Part shown: positions 30,123 through 63,061 of the stretch, one piece after another
Numbering within the stretch: position 1 is the first letter of the stretch
How the letters are laid out: each line of letters starts with the position of its first letter
DNA from: Clostridiales bacterium
GTDB taxonomy: Bacteria; Bacillota; Desulfotomaculia; Desulfotomaculales; VENG01
Length of the DNA stretch: 64,000 bases
Direction of reading: 5' to 3'
Assembly (NCBI GenBank): GCA_016278505.1
Contig: JADQBQ010000028.1
Coordinates: forward strand, 1-64,000
Position numbers and translations under genes: made by a program
Notes under the pieces: generated by a model
Database searches by the model: none
What the model saw: only the letters and a program-made list of their open reading frames with translations
Told to the model about the DNA's origin: nothing

Positions 30123-30624
30123 GTTTGGTCTAAAAAGAAACACGATAAAAAGCAAAAGCCTTCCTTAAAATAACTTTAAGGGGGCTTTTGCGATAATGGT
30201 GGTGTTTGTACATAATAGTACTTGCCAGAAGGGGAAATTCATGCTATATTTGTTGTAGTTGGCTAATTGATTGAAAATAAAGTTTAACGACCGTATATGT
30301 TGGTTTTATGCGGTTTTTTATGGAAGCTTTAAGTGCTTGTGTTCACAAGAGAGGCTGAGGAAAAAAATACTTTCTGTTACAGGAAGGTGTTTTAGAAAAA
30401 ATGTAGAATAAGTTAAAGTAAAGCAAGTTATTAATCGTGCTTATGCTTTAAGTGGGCATGATTGGCACTTATAACTTATTGTTTAGTAAAAATTAGTGCT
30501 AAGGTTCACAATGGGGAAGTGTTGCGGGGAAGATTCAGAATGAGTCTGGTCTGAGGCTCTTCGTTCCTCGAGACACAAGTTACAAATAATAAATAATAAA
30601 TAAAAAACAGGAGGGGAATTTTTT
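30123..30624. promoter_or_regulatory. sat upstream region
   Basis: About 500 bp before sat. After a terminator (30152-30191) there is a 14-bp palindrome CTTGTG-TT-CACAAG (30336-30349) and a folded segment near 30530-30572 (GAAGA...TCTTC). A long leader is likely but no clear promoter was found. The palindrome resembles a truncated Rex-type site but lacks the full length. Confidence 0.35.
30152..30191 (+). terminator. Terminator
   Basis: GCAAAAGCC/GGCTTTTGC outer stem with inner CCTTAAA/TTTAAGG. Confidence 0.75.
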
Positions 30625-31863
30625 ATGGCACTACCGAAACCACATGGTCCTGAAGGAAAGCTTAAGCCTCTGTTGCTTTATGGCGGAGAAAGAGAAGCTG
30701 AAATCAAAAAGGCAGAAGGACTGCCGAAGGTGTACATGAGTTCCCGTGAAACTTCAGATATCCTAATGTTGGGTATCGGCGCTTTTACACCGTTGGATGG
30801 TTTTATGAAGGAAAAAGATTTTACCGGTTCTGTTTTTGACATGAAACTCACCGATGGCACAATGTGGCCCATGCCTGTCACTCTTTCCATTACCAAGGAA
30901 GAAAAAGAAGCCCTTAACCTCAAAGAAGGTATGGATGTAGCTTTAATTGACAGGGCAACTGATGAGCTTTACGCTACCATGAAAGTAGAAGAAATTTATA
31001 CGTATGACAAGGAAGCCCAGTGCCGTGAAGTATTCACTACTCTGGACGCTGAAGGACATCCGGGTGTTGGCAGTGTAATGGCACAAGGTGAATTTAACAT
31101 AGGCGGGCCTGTCAAGGTAGTTAATGAAGGTATATATCCTGAAAAGTATCCTGATTATTACCTGTATCCCGAGCAGGCTCGTAAGCTTTTCGAATCAAAG
31201 GGTTGGTCTAATGTAGTTGCTTTCCAAACTCGTAACCCTATGCACCGTTCTCATGAATACTTGGTTAAGTTTGCGCTGGAAGGCGGAGCTGTAGACGGTG
31301 CTTTTATCCACGCCATTGTTGGTGCCTTGAAGCCTGGTGATATTCCCGGTGAAACCCGCGTTAAGTGCTACGAAGTTTTAGCTGAAAATTATTTCCCGAA
31401 AGAGAACATGGCTGTTGGTGTGTACCCGATGGAAATGCGTTATGGTGGTCCTAGGGAAGCATTGCTGCACGCTATATTCCGCCAGAACTGGGGATGTAGT
31501 TACCTGATCGTAGGTCGTGACCACGCCGGTGTTGGCGATTACTATGGAGCATTTGATGCTCAAGATATATTTGACAAGCTTTGGGATGGCGCTCTGGAAC
31601 TGAAGTGCATGAAAATTGCCTGGACATTCTACTGCCACAAGTGCGAAAGTATGGCCAGTCAGCGTACATGCCCCCATGACGCAGAAGACCGCGTAGTAGT
31701 TAGTGGAACTAAGTTCCGCCGCACAATGCAAGAGGGTGGGGATATTAATCCCAAGTTTAGCCGCCCGGAAGTTCTGGAAATACTGAAAGATTACTATAAA
31801 ACTGCTGAAAAAGTGGAAATTAAGAAAGGCGCATTCGAAGATATTCCTGCTACCAAGAAGTAG
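30625..31863 (+). CDS. sat: Sulfate adenylyltransferase (ATP sulfurylase)
   Basis: 412-aa enzyme that activates sulfate with ATP to adenosine 5'-phosphosulfate, the first step of dissimilatory sulfate reduction in the cytoplasm. The nucleotide-binding QTRNPMHRSHEYL (near 200) and GRDHAGVGDYYG (near 296) motifs are intact. The cysteines CHKCES...CPHD (336-350) form the zinc site of the dissimilatory-type enzyme. There is no APS-kinase domain. AGGAGGGG precedes the ATG. A terminator separates it from aprBA, so it is transcribed alone. Confidence 0.97.
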   Translation: MALPKPHGPEGKLKPLLLYGGEREAEIKKAEGLPKVYMSSRETSDILMLGIGAFTPLDGFMKEKDFTGSVFDMKLTDGTMWPMPVTLSITKEEKEALNLKEGMDVALIDRATDELYATMKVEEIYTYDKEAQCREVFTTLDAEGHPGVGSVMAQGEFNIGGPVKVVNEGIYPEKYPDYYLYPEQARKLFESKGWSNVVAFQTRNPMHRSHEYLVKFALEGGAVDGAFIHAIVGALKPGDIPGETRVKCYEVLAENYFPKENMAVGVYPMEMRYGGPREALLHAIFRQNWGCSYLIVGRDHAGVGDYYGAFDAQDIFDKLWDGALELKCMKIAWTFYCHKCESMASQRTCPHDAEDRVVVSGTKFRRTMQEGGDINPKFSRPEVLEILKDYYKTAEKVEIKKGAFEDIPATKK

Positions 31864-45091: not shown

Positions 45092-45142
45092 ATAGATGAC
45101 AAATAATTGTGAAGTCAATCACTAATAAGACTAAAAATGTAT

Positions 45143-58464: not shown

Positions 58465-59943
58465 TCAATCCTTCTGTCCGACAAGTACTTCCAGGGTACA
58501 GCTAATCAAATTGATTAAGGCTTGACCGATAATGTAATCTTTGCACTGTGGCGTATCTATTAAAGGATGCACAATAGGGATTTTTACAGAATCAGTTATG
58601 AGTTGCAAATAGTTCTTGATTGTACCCCACTGCTTATAAGCATTAATAATTTCCAGGGCAGGTAGGTCTTTTAGATTAGTCTCTAAAACGGTTGTACGGT
58701 TTAAAGTCTTAAGCTTCTGGATCACCTCCTCGTTACGGTTAATATGAATATCTTGTTTTTTAAGGTTGAGCCGGTAATTAAAATAATTTTCACATTCGTG
58801 TTTTTTCAATGTCTTAATAATTTGATTGGTGATGGTTTTTTCCCGGCGTAACCTTTGCTGCCTTACAGAAGAGCGAATTTTATCCAGATCACGGACCGCT
58901 TGGGTCAAAGTTTTTTCTAAAGCTTGGTCAGACTTAGTGTTGGCCCTAAGATCGTGGCAAATGATATAACGTTTTTTTGATTTGGCAATATCTTTAACCC
59001 ACAATGTGTTGTCAACGGTGAATGCATCACGATCTTGCCACAGGTCTGCAGATGAAACCGGTATGATTCCGAATTCTTCCGGTGGTAAAGATTTAATACT
59101 TGGAAAATTCGGAGGCAGTAGTGGCAAGTGATTACTATCACCAGACACCATACACAAATTGATTCCTAAACGTTTGGCCAAATTTTGTTGATTTGCCGAA
59201 ATGTCCTCGGTGGCAAATGGGCTGTTTTTAATGCTGCAATTAATAGGGATGCCGGGTGGTACAGCAGTTACCAGTAATTGCAATGGTTGGTGGTGGGGTT
59301 GCACCTGGTAGGCTGTACCTGTGCTGTTAACGTCACATTTATAGCCGACATATTCGCCCTGCAGCGAAGTCACATATAAAAAAGATGATTTATTCAATTG
59401 CCGGTGCAGAGTTACAAACAAATGGTTTTCAAGCTGTTCCTGATATTTTGCCAGGCAGATTGTGGCCTGGTAAAAATCATTTTCGCCTAAAGAGCAGTTG
59501 TGAAGCTCTGGTAAACTAATATTTTTGTAGCTTAAAGCAATGGGCCGGTTTTCTTGGGGGAACAGCAGCTTTTGGAAAACCATTGTTTTTATTAGCCTGG
59601 GCATTGAACCGTATTTTTTTTCGTCCAAAGTGCGGGACAAAAAGTCCGACATGCCCAGCTTTTGCCACAATTTATCCAAGTTTGTAATTTGCATTCGCGG
59701 ATGACGCTGTTCCTGCATTGGATATGTCTTTCTCGACAGGTCTAATTCCGGCATGTCAGGGTCTGCAAGTTTGTTCAAGCTGGTAATAAGGGTATTTACT
59801 TTTTCCGGATCAATGTGGTCTATGTTACCCAGATTGGCAATAACTCTTTGTTTTACTTTGCCGTTCTCACGATAACTTTCAATCAACTTCAGGTAGGTAT
59901 ACTCCTTACCATTACGCTTAGTAACGATTCGGCGGAAAAACAT
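58465..59943 (-). CDS. IS1634-like transposase, catalytically degenerate
   Basis: 492 aa, full length, with the family N-terminus (KRNGKEYTYLKLIESYRENGK) and DDE layout. The first Asp of yDvTS is Tyr (FLYVTSLQGEY), the second Asp remains (MVSGDSNHL), and the Glu of the final IExxFRxLK helix is Lys (TIKNYLQLI). Two of three catalytic acids are therefore lost while the frame stays open. No terminal inverted repeats were found around the gene. It has a strong promoter and long leader shared with the small protein at 62.3 kb. A domesticated protein is plausible. Confidence 0.72.
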   Translation of the reverse strand: MFFRRIVTKRNGKEYTYLKLIESYRENGKVKQRVIANLGNIDHIDPEKVNTLITSLNKLADPDMPELDLSRKTYPMQEQRHPRMQITNLDKLWQKLGMSDFLSRTLDEKKYGSMPRLIKTMVFQKLLFPQENRPIALSYKNISLPELHNCSLGENDFYQATICLAKYQEQLENHLFVTLHRQLNKSSFLYVTSLQGEYVGYKCDVNSTGTAYQVQPHHQPLQLLVTAVPPGIPINCSIKNSPFATEDISANQQNLAKRLGINLCMVSGDSNHLPLLPPNFPSIKSLPPEEFGIIPVSSADLWQDRDAFTVDNTLWVKDIAKSKKRYIICHDLRANTKSDQALEKTLTQAVRDLDKIRSSVRQQRLRREKTITNQIIKTLKKHECENYFNYRLNLKKQDIHINRNEEVIQKLKTLNRTTVLETNLKDLPALEIINAYKQWGTIKNYLQLITDSVKIPIVHPLIDTPQCKDYIIGQALINLISCTLEVLVGQKD

Positions 59944-60019
59944 TTGATCACCGCCTTATTAATTGTTTGAGTCTTAAAAAAGGGCGCAAAAACCCCTCAA
60001 AAGAAAGTCAATTAAAAAT

Positions 60020-60262
60020 TTAGAAAGTGACAAATTACATTCCTATACCCGGAAGTGCTCCCAACACAGTGACGGGCATGAAACGTAGAGCCGACAGGTG
60101 AGGAATTCTTTTTTATTATATCTCACCGGTGGATAGTTCTAATCTATTAAGTTCTGATATCTGTATATCTATGTAGTGACAAATTGTGAACTCTATCACT
60201 ATTTTTTCACATGCATAGTACCATAGGGCCATAATTAGGTCAATATATTTTAAAATTATTTT
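60020..60262 (-). repeat. Promoter-leader repeat, left copy
   Basis: About 240 nt homologous, in inverted orientation, to 61890-62170. On the minus strand it holds TTGACC, 17 nt, TACTAT (60243-60215), a GTGATA...TTCACAA segment and a 27-nt core (60049-60075) identical to the right copy. It ends about 75 nt before the transposase-like gene. Confidence 0.75.
60215..60243 (-). promoter_or_regulatory. Promoter of transposase-like gene
   Basis: TTGACC, 17-nt spacer, TACTAT on the minus strand; the spacer and -10 (CCTATGGTACTAT) nearly match the promoter at 61908. Start near 60208, giving a 265-nt leader. Confidence 0.75.
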
Positions 60263-60308
60263 TAACAAAATTGTTAAGCATTTTTGTCATTGTCTTTACC
60301 CCTTGATG

Positions 60309-60328
60309 AAAGTATACCTTGCCATATA
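60309..60328. repeat. Dispersed repeat, second copy
   Basis: AAAGTATACCTTGCCATATA, identical to 12411-12430, here downstream of the CoA-transferase gene. Confidence 0.5.
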
Positions 60329-60360
60329 GGAACTGATTTGACGCGCTTTTTTTAGCGCTG

Positions 60361-61692
60361 TCACCTAGTATACCCTAGTTTTTTAGCTGCTTCACTTAAG
60401 CCATAGCGGTAGTCGGGATGGGCTATTGATATTAATGCTTCGACTCTCTCTCGAACCGTTTTGCCTTTTAGTTTAACAATACCATATTCGGTGGCCACAA
60501 AGTCGACGTCATTGCGGCTGATGGTGGTTACCGTGCCTTTTTCCAATTGGGGAACGATATTAGACTGTTTTTTGTAATTAGTTGACCTAAGAGTCATAAA
60601 AAATTTACCATTTCGGGCCATAGCCACGCCGCGTGCAAAGTCAACCTGGCCTCCGGTACCGCAAAGCTGTTTGGGTCCTATGGGTTCAGCGGTACATTGG
60701 CCAAGTAAATCAACTTTACTGGCACCGTTAACAGCCGTGATATTTTCATTCTTTGCAATAATATATGGGTCATTAGTGAAAGAAACCGGTCGCATTTCAA
60801 TCATGGGATTGTCATCCATGAAATCATATAGCTGCTTTGTTCCAATAGCTGAAGTGCAAATAATCTTCCCCGGGTGTAGTATTTTGTTTTGGTTGGTGAT
60901 CACTCCGGCGTCCACTAGCTTTACCACCGCATCCGTAAGAATCTCAGTGTGAACGCCCAATTCTTTTTTATCATGCAGTGAATAAGCTAAACTTTGGGGG
61001 ATGGCGGTTACCCCCAGTGCCAATGTATCTCCGTCGTTGATATAAGCAGCAATTTCTTGAGCAACTTTCATGTCAATTTCAGTCACAAGATCAGAGGAAG
61101 CTTCGGGTAAAGGAGAGTTGTCCTCGATGATTAAATCGACCTGAGAGATGTGGATATGCCCGCTGCCGTGCGTGCGGGGCATGTTATTATTTACCGACAG
61201 TATTACAATGTCAGCCTTTTGTGCTGCTGCCATGGTGAAGTTTACAGAAACACCAAAACTAAAAAAACCATGCCGGTCCATGCGGGAAACGCAAGCAATA
61301 AAAACATTTACCGGCAGACTTTCAGAAAAGAAACGAGGATATTCATGCAGGTATCCCATCATTATACCGGATTGGCCGGCCTTGACCCCCGGGCGGCTAA
61401 TGGCGCTGTTAAACCATGAAACATGGCGAAAATGACGCTCCATACCTTTTTGCATGTATTTAGGTTCCGCAAGAGGTAGCATTTGGTGAATACGGACGTC
61501 GCGTAGTTCATGTTTGCGCTCTGTGATGGCATCAAGTAATAAAGTGGGCTCTCCGGCCCCCATTGAGCTTACTACATTATCACCGGATTTAATATGTTCA
61601 GCCGCTTCTTTTGTCGTGACAAGTTTGTCTTTAAATAACCTGTTTAGTTCACTGGTATTGGAACTAAGCGGGCCTGTTTGATACCAAGCCAT
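60361..61692 (-). CDS. Acetyl-CoA hydrolase/CoA-transferase family enzyme
   Basis: 443-aa family I CoA-transferase of the acetyl-CoA hydrolase/4-hydroxybutyrate CoA-transferase type. It has VVSSMGAGEPTLLLDAI early, GVTAIPQSLAY in the middle, CGTGGQVDFARGVAMARNGK and the terminal VATEYGIVKLKGKTVRERVEALISIAHPDYR. Such enzymes move CoA between acetate and other acids, useful for oxidising butyrate or acetate. AAGGAG precedes the ATG. It lies exactly between the two inverted promoter-leader repeats. Confidence 0.88.
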   Translation of the reverse strand: MAWYQTGPLSSNTSELNRLFKDKLVTTKEAAEHIKSGDNVVSSMGAGEPTLLLDAITERKHELRDVRIHQMLPLAEPKYMQKGMERHFRHVSWFNSAISRPGVKAGQSGIMMGYLHEYPRFFSESLPVNVFIACVSRMDRHGFFSFGVSVNFTMAAAQKADIVILSVNNNMPRTHGSGHIHISQVDLIIEDNSPLPEASSDLVTEIDMKVAQEIAAYINDGDTLALGVTAIPQSLAYSLHDKKELGVHTEILTDAVVKLVDAGVITNQNKILHPGKIICTSAIGTKQLYDFMDDNPMIEMRPVSFTNDPYIIAKNENITAVNGASKVDLLGQCTAEPIGPKQLCGTGGQVDFARGVAMARNGKFFMTLRSTNYKKQSNIVPQLEKGTVTTISRNDVDFVATEYGIVKLKGKTVRERVEALISIAHPDYRYGLSEAAKKLGYTR

Positions 61693-61792
61693 CTAACACA
61701 ACTCCTTGTAAATTACTCTTAAAAAAGCACCTGGATTTTTCGCTTTTGCAGCAAAGGACGTCGTGATTTCTGTCACATTTAATTTTATGTTA

Positions 61793-61822
61793 ATCATATG
61801 ATAAAGCAGAACAGAGAGTCAA
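61793..61822 (-). promoter_or_regulatory. Promoter of CoA-transferase gene
   Basis: TTGACT, 18-nt spacer, TATGAT on the minus strand, about 95 nt before the start codon. Confidence 0.6.
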
Positions 61823-61907
61823 CAAAAGATTTTGGTAAATAAGAGAGGGGGGGGTATATTTCGAATACTATTTGCTGGTATTGTTGTCACAAAAATATAA
61901 AAAATTG

Positions 61908-61936
61908 TTGACGAATTTATGGCGCTATGGTACTAT
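61908..61936 (+). promoter_or_regulatory. Promoter of the 65-residue protein
   Basis: TTGACG, 17-nt spacer, TACTAT; predicted start near 61943, giving a 320-nt leader. Confidence 0.75.
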
Positions 61937-62078
61937 GCAACTGAAAAAGTGATATAGTTCACAAGAGTTGTCATTACGATGTATGTAGTTGAAAAATGGT
62001 ATGTAGACGAAAAATGCAAGGACTGCAGATAAAACGAAGGGTATATGGTCGATGTTTAAGTAGGGGCGATAAAAAAAA

Positions 62079-62150
62079 GAACCCCCTCACCCGTCGGCTC
62101 AATGTTCCGTATCCGTCACTGTGTTGGGAGCACTTCCGGATATGGAAACA
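62079..62150 (+). ncRNA. Conserved leader RNA core
   Basis: From CTCACCCGTCGGCTC to CACTTCCGG this segment matches the left leader (60040-60112, minus strand), with 27 nt perfectly conserved and flanks differing by scattered substitutions. Local stems CCG/CGG and GGGA-GCAC-UUCC are possible. It looks like a cis-acting RNA in two unrelated transcripts. Confidence 0.5.
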
Positions 62151-62261
62151 TATTGTTGTCACTTTTCACCGACTTTCTTATGAGGGGTTAGTCTAACTTT
62201 TTATATGCAATTTTGACAAAGCACATTACATCTCACAAATCCAACGAAAGGAGGGATTGCA

Positions 62262-62459
62262 ATGGTTGCACAATCCACAAGTGCCAACTGGTTCAAAAAT
62301 GTTTTAGAAATACCGTTTTTTGAAGCAGAAATGGCTCGGGTTGAAATGACTAAAGTTAACCCGGGTGAAGAAAGTATGCTACCGGTAACTTTGCTGGCAA
62401 TTTATGGTGTAGGCTTTGCGGTTTTATGCAGTTATTCTGTCGTTAATTATTTGTTATAA
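62262..62459 (+). CDS. 65-residue membrane protein, unknown
   Basis: A polar N-terminus (about 1-38, acidic and amphipathic) and one helix (LPVTLLAIYGVGFAVLCSYSVV). AAAGGAGGG precedes the ATG. It has a strong promoter, a 320-nt conserved leader and a terminator, so it is a deliberately controlled monocistronic unit. No family recognised; it resembles small single-helix transporter subunits in layout only. Confidence 0.7.
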   Translation: MVAQSTSANWFKNVLEIPFFEAEMARVEMTKVNPGEESMLPVTLLAIYGVGFAVLCSYSVVNYLL

Positions 62460-62584: not shown

Positions 62585-63061
62585 TTACACCACACCTAAT
62601 TCAGCTAAATATGGTCTGGTTGTTATTATAAATTTGGCAAGTTGGTTTGCGGCATATCGTACATTCTTCTTGTAGTAGACATCATCGGGAATTATTAACT
62701 TTAGGCGGTATTGACCTGTGGCCTCAATATTTGGCAATTCCCTTTCCAGTGCCGCACCCAGTTTTTTTTCAATAATCTCTCTTTTCTTCAATAAAGGAAC
62801 GAATACTTGTTTCTTGTAACCATCCATGACCAAGTCGATTGCTATATATTCCTGACCCTTACGCGGGCCTTTGCGCGGTTTTGTCTTACCTATCCGATAA
62901 AAAATATTTTTAGTGTTCGATATCTGAATACATTTCCAAGATTCTACAATGCCAAGTTTTTTACCCAGGGAGATGCAGCGAACCCTAATGTTATAATCTT
63001 TAAGAATCACAACGGCCTCGTGCAAAACATCTTCCAGAAAATCATTAAATGCCTGTTGCAA
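62585..63061 (-). CDS. Unknown protein, possibly DUF4268-like
   Basis: 158 aa, basic, mixed alpha/beta. The second half (KKREIIEKKLGAALERELPNIEATGQYRLKLIIP) recalls DUF4268, a domain related to restriction-type nucleases, but I cannot confirm it. TTG 63061 has GGGGAG 8 nt upstream. Single gene, upstream hairpin AGTGTGG/CCGCACT near 63100-63122. Confidence 0.5.
   Translation of the reverse strand: MQQAFNDFLEDVLHEAVVILKDYNIRVRCISLGKKLGIVESWKCIQISNTKNIFYRIGKTKPRKGPRKGQEYIAIDLVMDGYKKQVFVPLLKKREIIEKKLGAALERELPNIEATGQYRLKLIIPDDVYYKKNVRYAANQLAKFIITTRPYLAELGVV

Follow-up and report, generated by a model that had tools for sequence, protein, structure and literature searches.

Two homologous outward-facing leaders with a candidate cis-regulatory RNA around a CoA-transferase gene in a sulfate-reduction island

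Two Related Leaders Flank a CoA-Transferase Gene

Within the window, i.e., the whole stretch of 64,000 nucleotides that was analyzed, a gene for an acyl-CoA:acetate CoA-transferase-like protein (443 aa, 60361..61692, minus strand) with a promoter-like site of its own (61822-61793, minus strand) lies between two leader regions that point outward from it. Leader A (60243..59991, minus strand) precedes a gene for a 492-aa protein, a probable exapted and catalytically dead IS1634-like transposase (58465..59943, minus strand), and leader B (61908..62193, plus strand) precedes a gene for a small membrane protein of 65 aa (62262..62459, plus strand), whereby each gene is putatively under the control of its leader. 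Both leaders contain a promoter, an operator-like site, a TTGTCAYTAC motif, and an RNA of 110-120 nt. The promoter is TTGACC-17-TACTAT with a TG before the -10 in leader A (60215..60243, minus strand) and TTGACG-17-TACTAT in leader B (61908..61936, plus strand). Just downstream of the -10 lies the operator-like site TTGTGAA-N4-ATCACTW, at 60184..60201 (minus strand; TTGTGAACTCTATCACTA on the plus strand) in leader A and at 61947..61964 (plus strand; TTGTGAACTATATCACTT on the minus strand) in leader B. It is followed by the TTGTCAYTAC motif, present as TTGTCACTAC at 60173..60182 (minus strand) and as TTGTCATTAC at 61968..61977 (plus strand), and by the structured RNA with the helices P1-P4 at 59991..60109 (minus strand) and 62079..62189 (plus strand), respectively.

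Four inverted arm pairs, 75-90% alike, were found mechanically in the window: 60040-60119/62069-62148 (80% identity), 60203-60271/61880-61948 (75%), 59991-60017/62163-62189 (85%), and 60184-60204/61944-61964 (90%). A gapped local alignment of A and B reached a best score of 107, compared to no more than 32 across 500 shuffles. A and B share no exact match longer than the 27-mer CCGTCACTGTGTTGGGAGCACTTCCGG (60049-60075 in A, minus strand; 62113-62139 in B, plus strand), which is the sole distant inverted match of at least 20 nt within the window; outside this core the identity is about 76-80%. BLAST analysis of the 3.9-Mb genome revealed two copies only, A and B, and a search of phage and plasmid collections yielded no match. 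Hence the alignment score and the four arms confirm the two homologous, outward-facing promoter-leader units that the preliminary description of this DNA had proposed, and the same holds for the promoter that it assigned to both units and for the identical 27-nt core. The matching segments are homologous but not uniform: they consist of a promoter/operator block and a 3' RNA block, separated by a stretch that is not conserved and differs in length between A and B. Most likely, A and B are paralogs that derive from a single regulatory leader, and the simplest history is a duplication of this leader, with no flipping segment involved.

A Structured RNA With a Possible P0/P1 Switch

The RNA comprises a closing stem P1 of the CCCCUC/GAGGGG type, P2, a long covarying P3, and P4, which carries an invariant internal loop; the 27-nt core corresponds to the P3 apex, the internal loop, and P4. 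A and B each fold better than shuffled sequences (z -2.8 and -2.7, respectively), and even A and B alone differ by pair-keeping changes in P3, e.g., C-G to U-A. A two-sequence covariance model of A and B was used to search 30 loci with the transposase-like or the 65-aa gene and returned one new copy (L040 1335-1453, E 9e-9), which lies upstream of the orthologous transposase-like gene in G002, a genome from another family of the same order. In this third copy most P3 positions differ and the pairs are kept. The three-sequence alignment, which was fitted to the covariance model and is hence biased towards its structure, has 96.7% of its cells paired and contains seven P3 pairs that changed on both sides; shuffles gave 3.1 such pairs (4/500) and slid structures no more than 2. 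RNAalifold, run without the structure of the model, predicts the same P1, P2, P3, and P4. Since P4 is invariant in all three copies, covariation is uninformative for this helix. Judged from these alignments, the RNA fold of the leaders is real and appears to be kept by compensatory changes.

The known copies of the RNA are the three in A, B, and G002. With the three-sequence model, nothing further of substance was found in 113 genomes of the order, which also make up the class-level sample, or in 398 genomes from the phylum, whereby both searches were run under the stricter filters for large sets; a match in G090 (29.6 bits) was rejected as a chance match, since it has neither the core nor the P3 apex. 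A degenerate pattern of the core, searched in 84,980 species genomes, matched the contig of G002, which is a Peptococcaceae MAG, and a single unrelated Planctomycete; the latter match has no P3 fold and was likewise rejected as chance. Weak DNA matches seen early on in G001 and G013 resembled coding sequence when they were read. Rfam returned no family at gathering or permissive thresholds, only chance-level matches, and also gave no support for what we presume to be a resemblance of the core to a segment of the cobalamin riboswitch. In the open-access literature, which gives weak evidence of novelty, we found no paper on candidate structured RNAs naming these genera, only an unrelated paper on ANTAR. 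Folding of whole leaders did not reveal unusual structure in those of more distant orthologs, as judged by z-scores, which are weak for A and G002 as well.

If regulation occurred at the DNA level alone, the promoter and operator would have been duplicated and the RNA fold would be a by-product of the fact that A and B descend from a recent common ancestor. Shared ancestry is indeed confined to A and B, and G001, a genome of the same family, has the promoter and the operator in both leaders without the RNA core. In G001, G002, and other families, the ortholog of the transposase-like gene is preceded by a promoter of the same architecture as that of leader A. However, G002 keeps its pairs at P3 positions that mostly differ and is recognized by the A+B model at the E-value given above, so that we consider a purely DNA-based regulation unlikely. 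We also give little weight to a reading of the RNA as an independently transcribed small RNA with a separate promoter and terminator. A strong promoter of its own, a U-rich tract after P1, and a predicted transcript of about 250 nt would fit such a small RNA, but in 3/3 cases a gene with a ribosome-binding site directly follows on the same strand, and a terminator scan of leaders A and B detected no simple terminator. As the copies stand, the RNA of A and B lies within the 5' leader of a gene with a promoter upstream, and that of G002 does likewise. An origin of the 110-120 nt unit as a MITE-like insertion bounded by AACCCCTC/GAGGGGTT is very improbable: the ends of the unit are short and inverted, but they are the strands of a varying stem, no further copy exists in either genome, and in two families the unit sits at the same position ahead of orthologous genes.

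A possible switch lies upstream of P1. In leader A, CUCACC in the 5' strand of P1 has a complement in the P0 strand GGUGAG (60122..60127, minus strand), which thus offers an alternative pairing; in leader B, the P1 5' strand includes CCCCU, with which the P0 strand AGGGG (62062..62066, plus strand) can pair. P0 is predicted with high probability to pair with the P1 5' strand in 3/3 leaders before the P1 3' strand exists. The P0 duplex is better than that of shuffles in A (0.013) and G002 (0.028) and no better than shuffles in B (0.577). Folding of the full leaders favors P0 in A and B and P1 in G002. All three leaders have an A-rich tract before P1 and U-rich sequence after it. Because of the competing P0 strand and the U-rich sequence after P1, an attenuator or riboswitch-like switch would be the most likely mechanism of the leaders. 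Given its A-rich and U-rich ends, P1 could be part of a terminator, or in A and B a hairpin further downstream that draws on the same 3' strand could be its competitor.

Gene Neighborhood and the Transposase-Like Gene

Across genomes, the transposase-like gene is accompanied by genes for a CoA-transferase, a small membrane protein, a TauE permease, and a DASS transporter, as well as by CBS and ArsB-like genes. The 65-aa gene belongs to a family that adjoins TauE permeases. The leaders precede two distinct genes, as the preliminary description had stated, but these are not functionally random neighbors, as the 65-aa family keeps its place beside TauE permeases and the transposase-like gene is conserved. 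Near the 65-aa gene family elsewhere, a further gene is conserved, which in the window encodes a 158-aa protein without a Pfam or NCBIfam match (62585-63061, minus strand). In favor of the circuit proposed below, the density of TTGTCACTAC is 2.06/kb upstream of the transposase-like gene, about 8-fold the 0.26/kb over whole loci, and 2.22/kb upstream of TauE, although this background is mostly coding, so that intergenic sequence as such may account for some of the difference.

The gene order also bears on the proposal that recombination between the repeats inverts the CoA-transferase gene. The arms are inverted, a flip would leave both units intact, and 27 bp are identical between them. Yet the arms are 75-90% alike in blocks only, and an exact identity of at most 27 bp is short for homologous recombination. 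The CoA-transferase and transposase-like genes have the same relative orientation in 4/4 genomes in which they adjoin (the window, G002, G006, and G075), and G002 keeps the order CoA-transferase, leader, transposase-like gene. In G001 (L076, G001:C50), the transposase-like and 65-aa genes are divergent with no CoA-transferase gene between them; it is this pair that shares promoters and operators. Pfam analysis of the ORFs tested between 43.6 and 80 kb on the contig revealed no site-specific recombinase. Moreover, the differences between the arms preserve the RNA pairing. An invertible DNA switch is therefore highly improbable, and this claim had to be given up. A lack of conservation of the repeats elsewhere had been named beforehand as the refuting outcome; instead they were found to be conserved, as RNA structure and operator, which argues for cis regulation and not for recombination.

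The preliminary description had also called the gene behind leader A a degenerate transposase. The 492-aa protein matches the IS1634 model (NF033559) with a score under the family cut-off. Throughout the order there are orthologs whose frames are intact, with one close ortholog per genome; 53/80 genomes have some match at E 1e-5, true IS copies included. The first D and the E of the DDE triad are replaced in the window protein and in every aligned ortholog, whereas the triad is intact in the multi-copy IS1634 elements of G051 and G000. The ends of true IS1634 copies are of the CAAGTTTGA type. From this comparison of sequences, the protein is best described as a conserved, DDE-dead, exapted IS1634-like protein, and its gene as intact. 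A search of the open-access literature, again weak evidence of novelty, yielded no paper on a domesticated IS1634 transposase.

It is conceivable, if rather doubtful, that the RNA represents a new riboswitch class or else the RNA target of the exapted transposase, which would bind the core or the TTGTCACTAC sites and thereby regulate the leader of its own gene as well as the one ahead of the small membrane protein gene. If this were true, a domesticated transposase would act as a local regulator of sulfate-reduction genes.

A Locally Confined Operator and the Proposed Circuit

The operator consensus TTGTGAA-N4-AKCACTW fits the leaders of G000, G001, and G002 and of two other families. Exact matches number six in the 3.9-Mb genome, and 5/6 are inside the window: those in leaders A and B, two upstream of the ATP sulfurylase gene sat (30625-31863), at 30331..30348 and 30494..30511 (both minus strand), and one at 45107..45124 (plus strand), after uspA and ahead of the small ORF that lies in front of a DASS transporter gene. 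The sixth match seems to be within an ORF. With A and B taken as given, 3/4 of the remaining matches fall into 1.6% of the genome. The window also contains six copies of CTRAATCGANYAANGATARGCC (at most 2 mismatches; 45145, 45538, 45904, 49013, 49852, and 50656, plus strand), which are the only ones in the genome and lie on one strand. In the three copies examined, strong hairpins follow that start at GATARGCC (z -3.6 to -6.7) and could compete with a GGCT..AGCC hairpin; Rfam gave no match for the 45-46 kb part of this region.

A rex gene is present in the genome, and Rex has been linked to the regulation of sat in D. vulgaris (PMC11451228). A Rex-type redox repressor or a relative may be regarded as the leading candidate for binding to the operator, which we put forward as a hypothesis because the right half of the operator differs. 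Canonical-like Rex sites are not enriched genome-wide (19 vs. 17).

In the circuit that we consider most likely, the leaders co-regulate the retired transposase-like gene and the small membrane protein gene within the sulfate-reduction island. Transcription would start at the sigma-A-type promoter of each leader, and a repressor that also acts on sat, possibly Rex, would bind to the operator just downstream of the -10. P0 would hold the P1 5' strand until the P1 3' strand is made; a metabolite or protein may then stabilize the folded inner domain, so that P1 replaces P0. This exchange would alter transcription termination ahead of the gene, in one direction or the other, and as an outcome the exapted transposase and the anion-permease-linked small membrane protein would be co-regulated. 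The whole explanation, duplicated leaders with promoter, operator, and a structured RNA switch that co-regulate two genes, builds on the repeats, the promoters, the operator clustering, the RNA covariation, the synteny, and the DDE loss, and we regard it as fairly probable. It describes a small circuit of co-regulated genes that includes a candidate new cis-regulatory RNA. If it is right, an Rfam-unmatched candidate RNA with a strongly conserved core controls genes of the sulfate-reduction island in Gram-positive sulfate reducers, and it acts together with a locally confined operator that is also found at sat. A catalytically dead transposase that is retained throughout an order of bacteria, next to anion-transporter genes, represents an unstudied case of domestication.

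Among known systems, the Desulfovibrio 'nitrate cluster', whose mutants have the same phenotype as rex mutants, likewise combines a TauE-like permease with signaling genes in a sulfate reducer (PMC4001038); no transposase-like gene has been reported for it, and homology was assessed through the TauE annotation. With the Rex operator TTGTGA-N6-TCACAA of Calderihabitans (PMC7306483), the operator shares an identical left half and the same spacing, and it lies next to sat, the gene linked to Rex in D. vulgaris (PMC11451228), but the right half of the leader sites is KCACTW instead of the canonical TCACAA, and exact sites are nearly confined to the island. The transposase-like protein is homologous to IS1634-family transposases (NF033559) in its N-terminal region, but it has lost the DDE residues, is single-copy across many genera, and does not appear mobile. 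Finally, the leaders differ from known riboswitches and protein-responsive attenuators in that they belong to no Rfam family, exist in three copies, and precede the genes for an exapted transposase and for a small membrane protein, whereas they resemble them as multi-helix leaders upstream of a gene, with a strongly conserved apical loop, a closing stem P1 that faces competition from an upstream strand, and U-rich sequence after P1.
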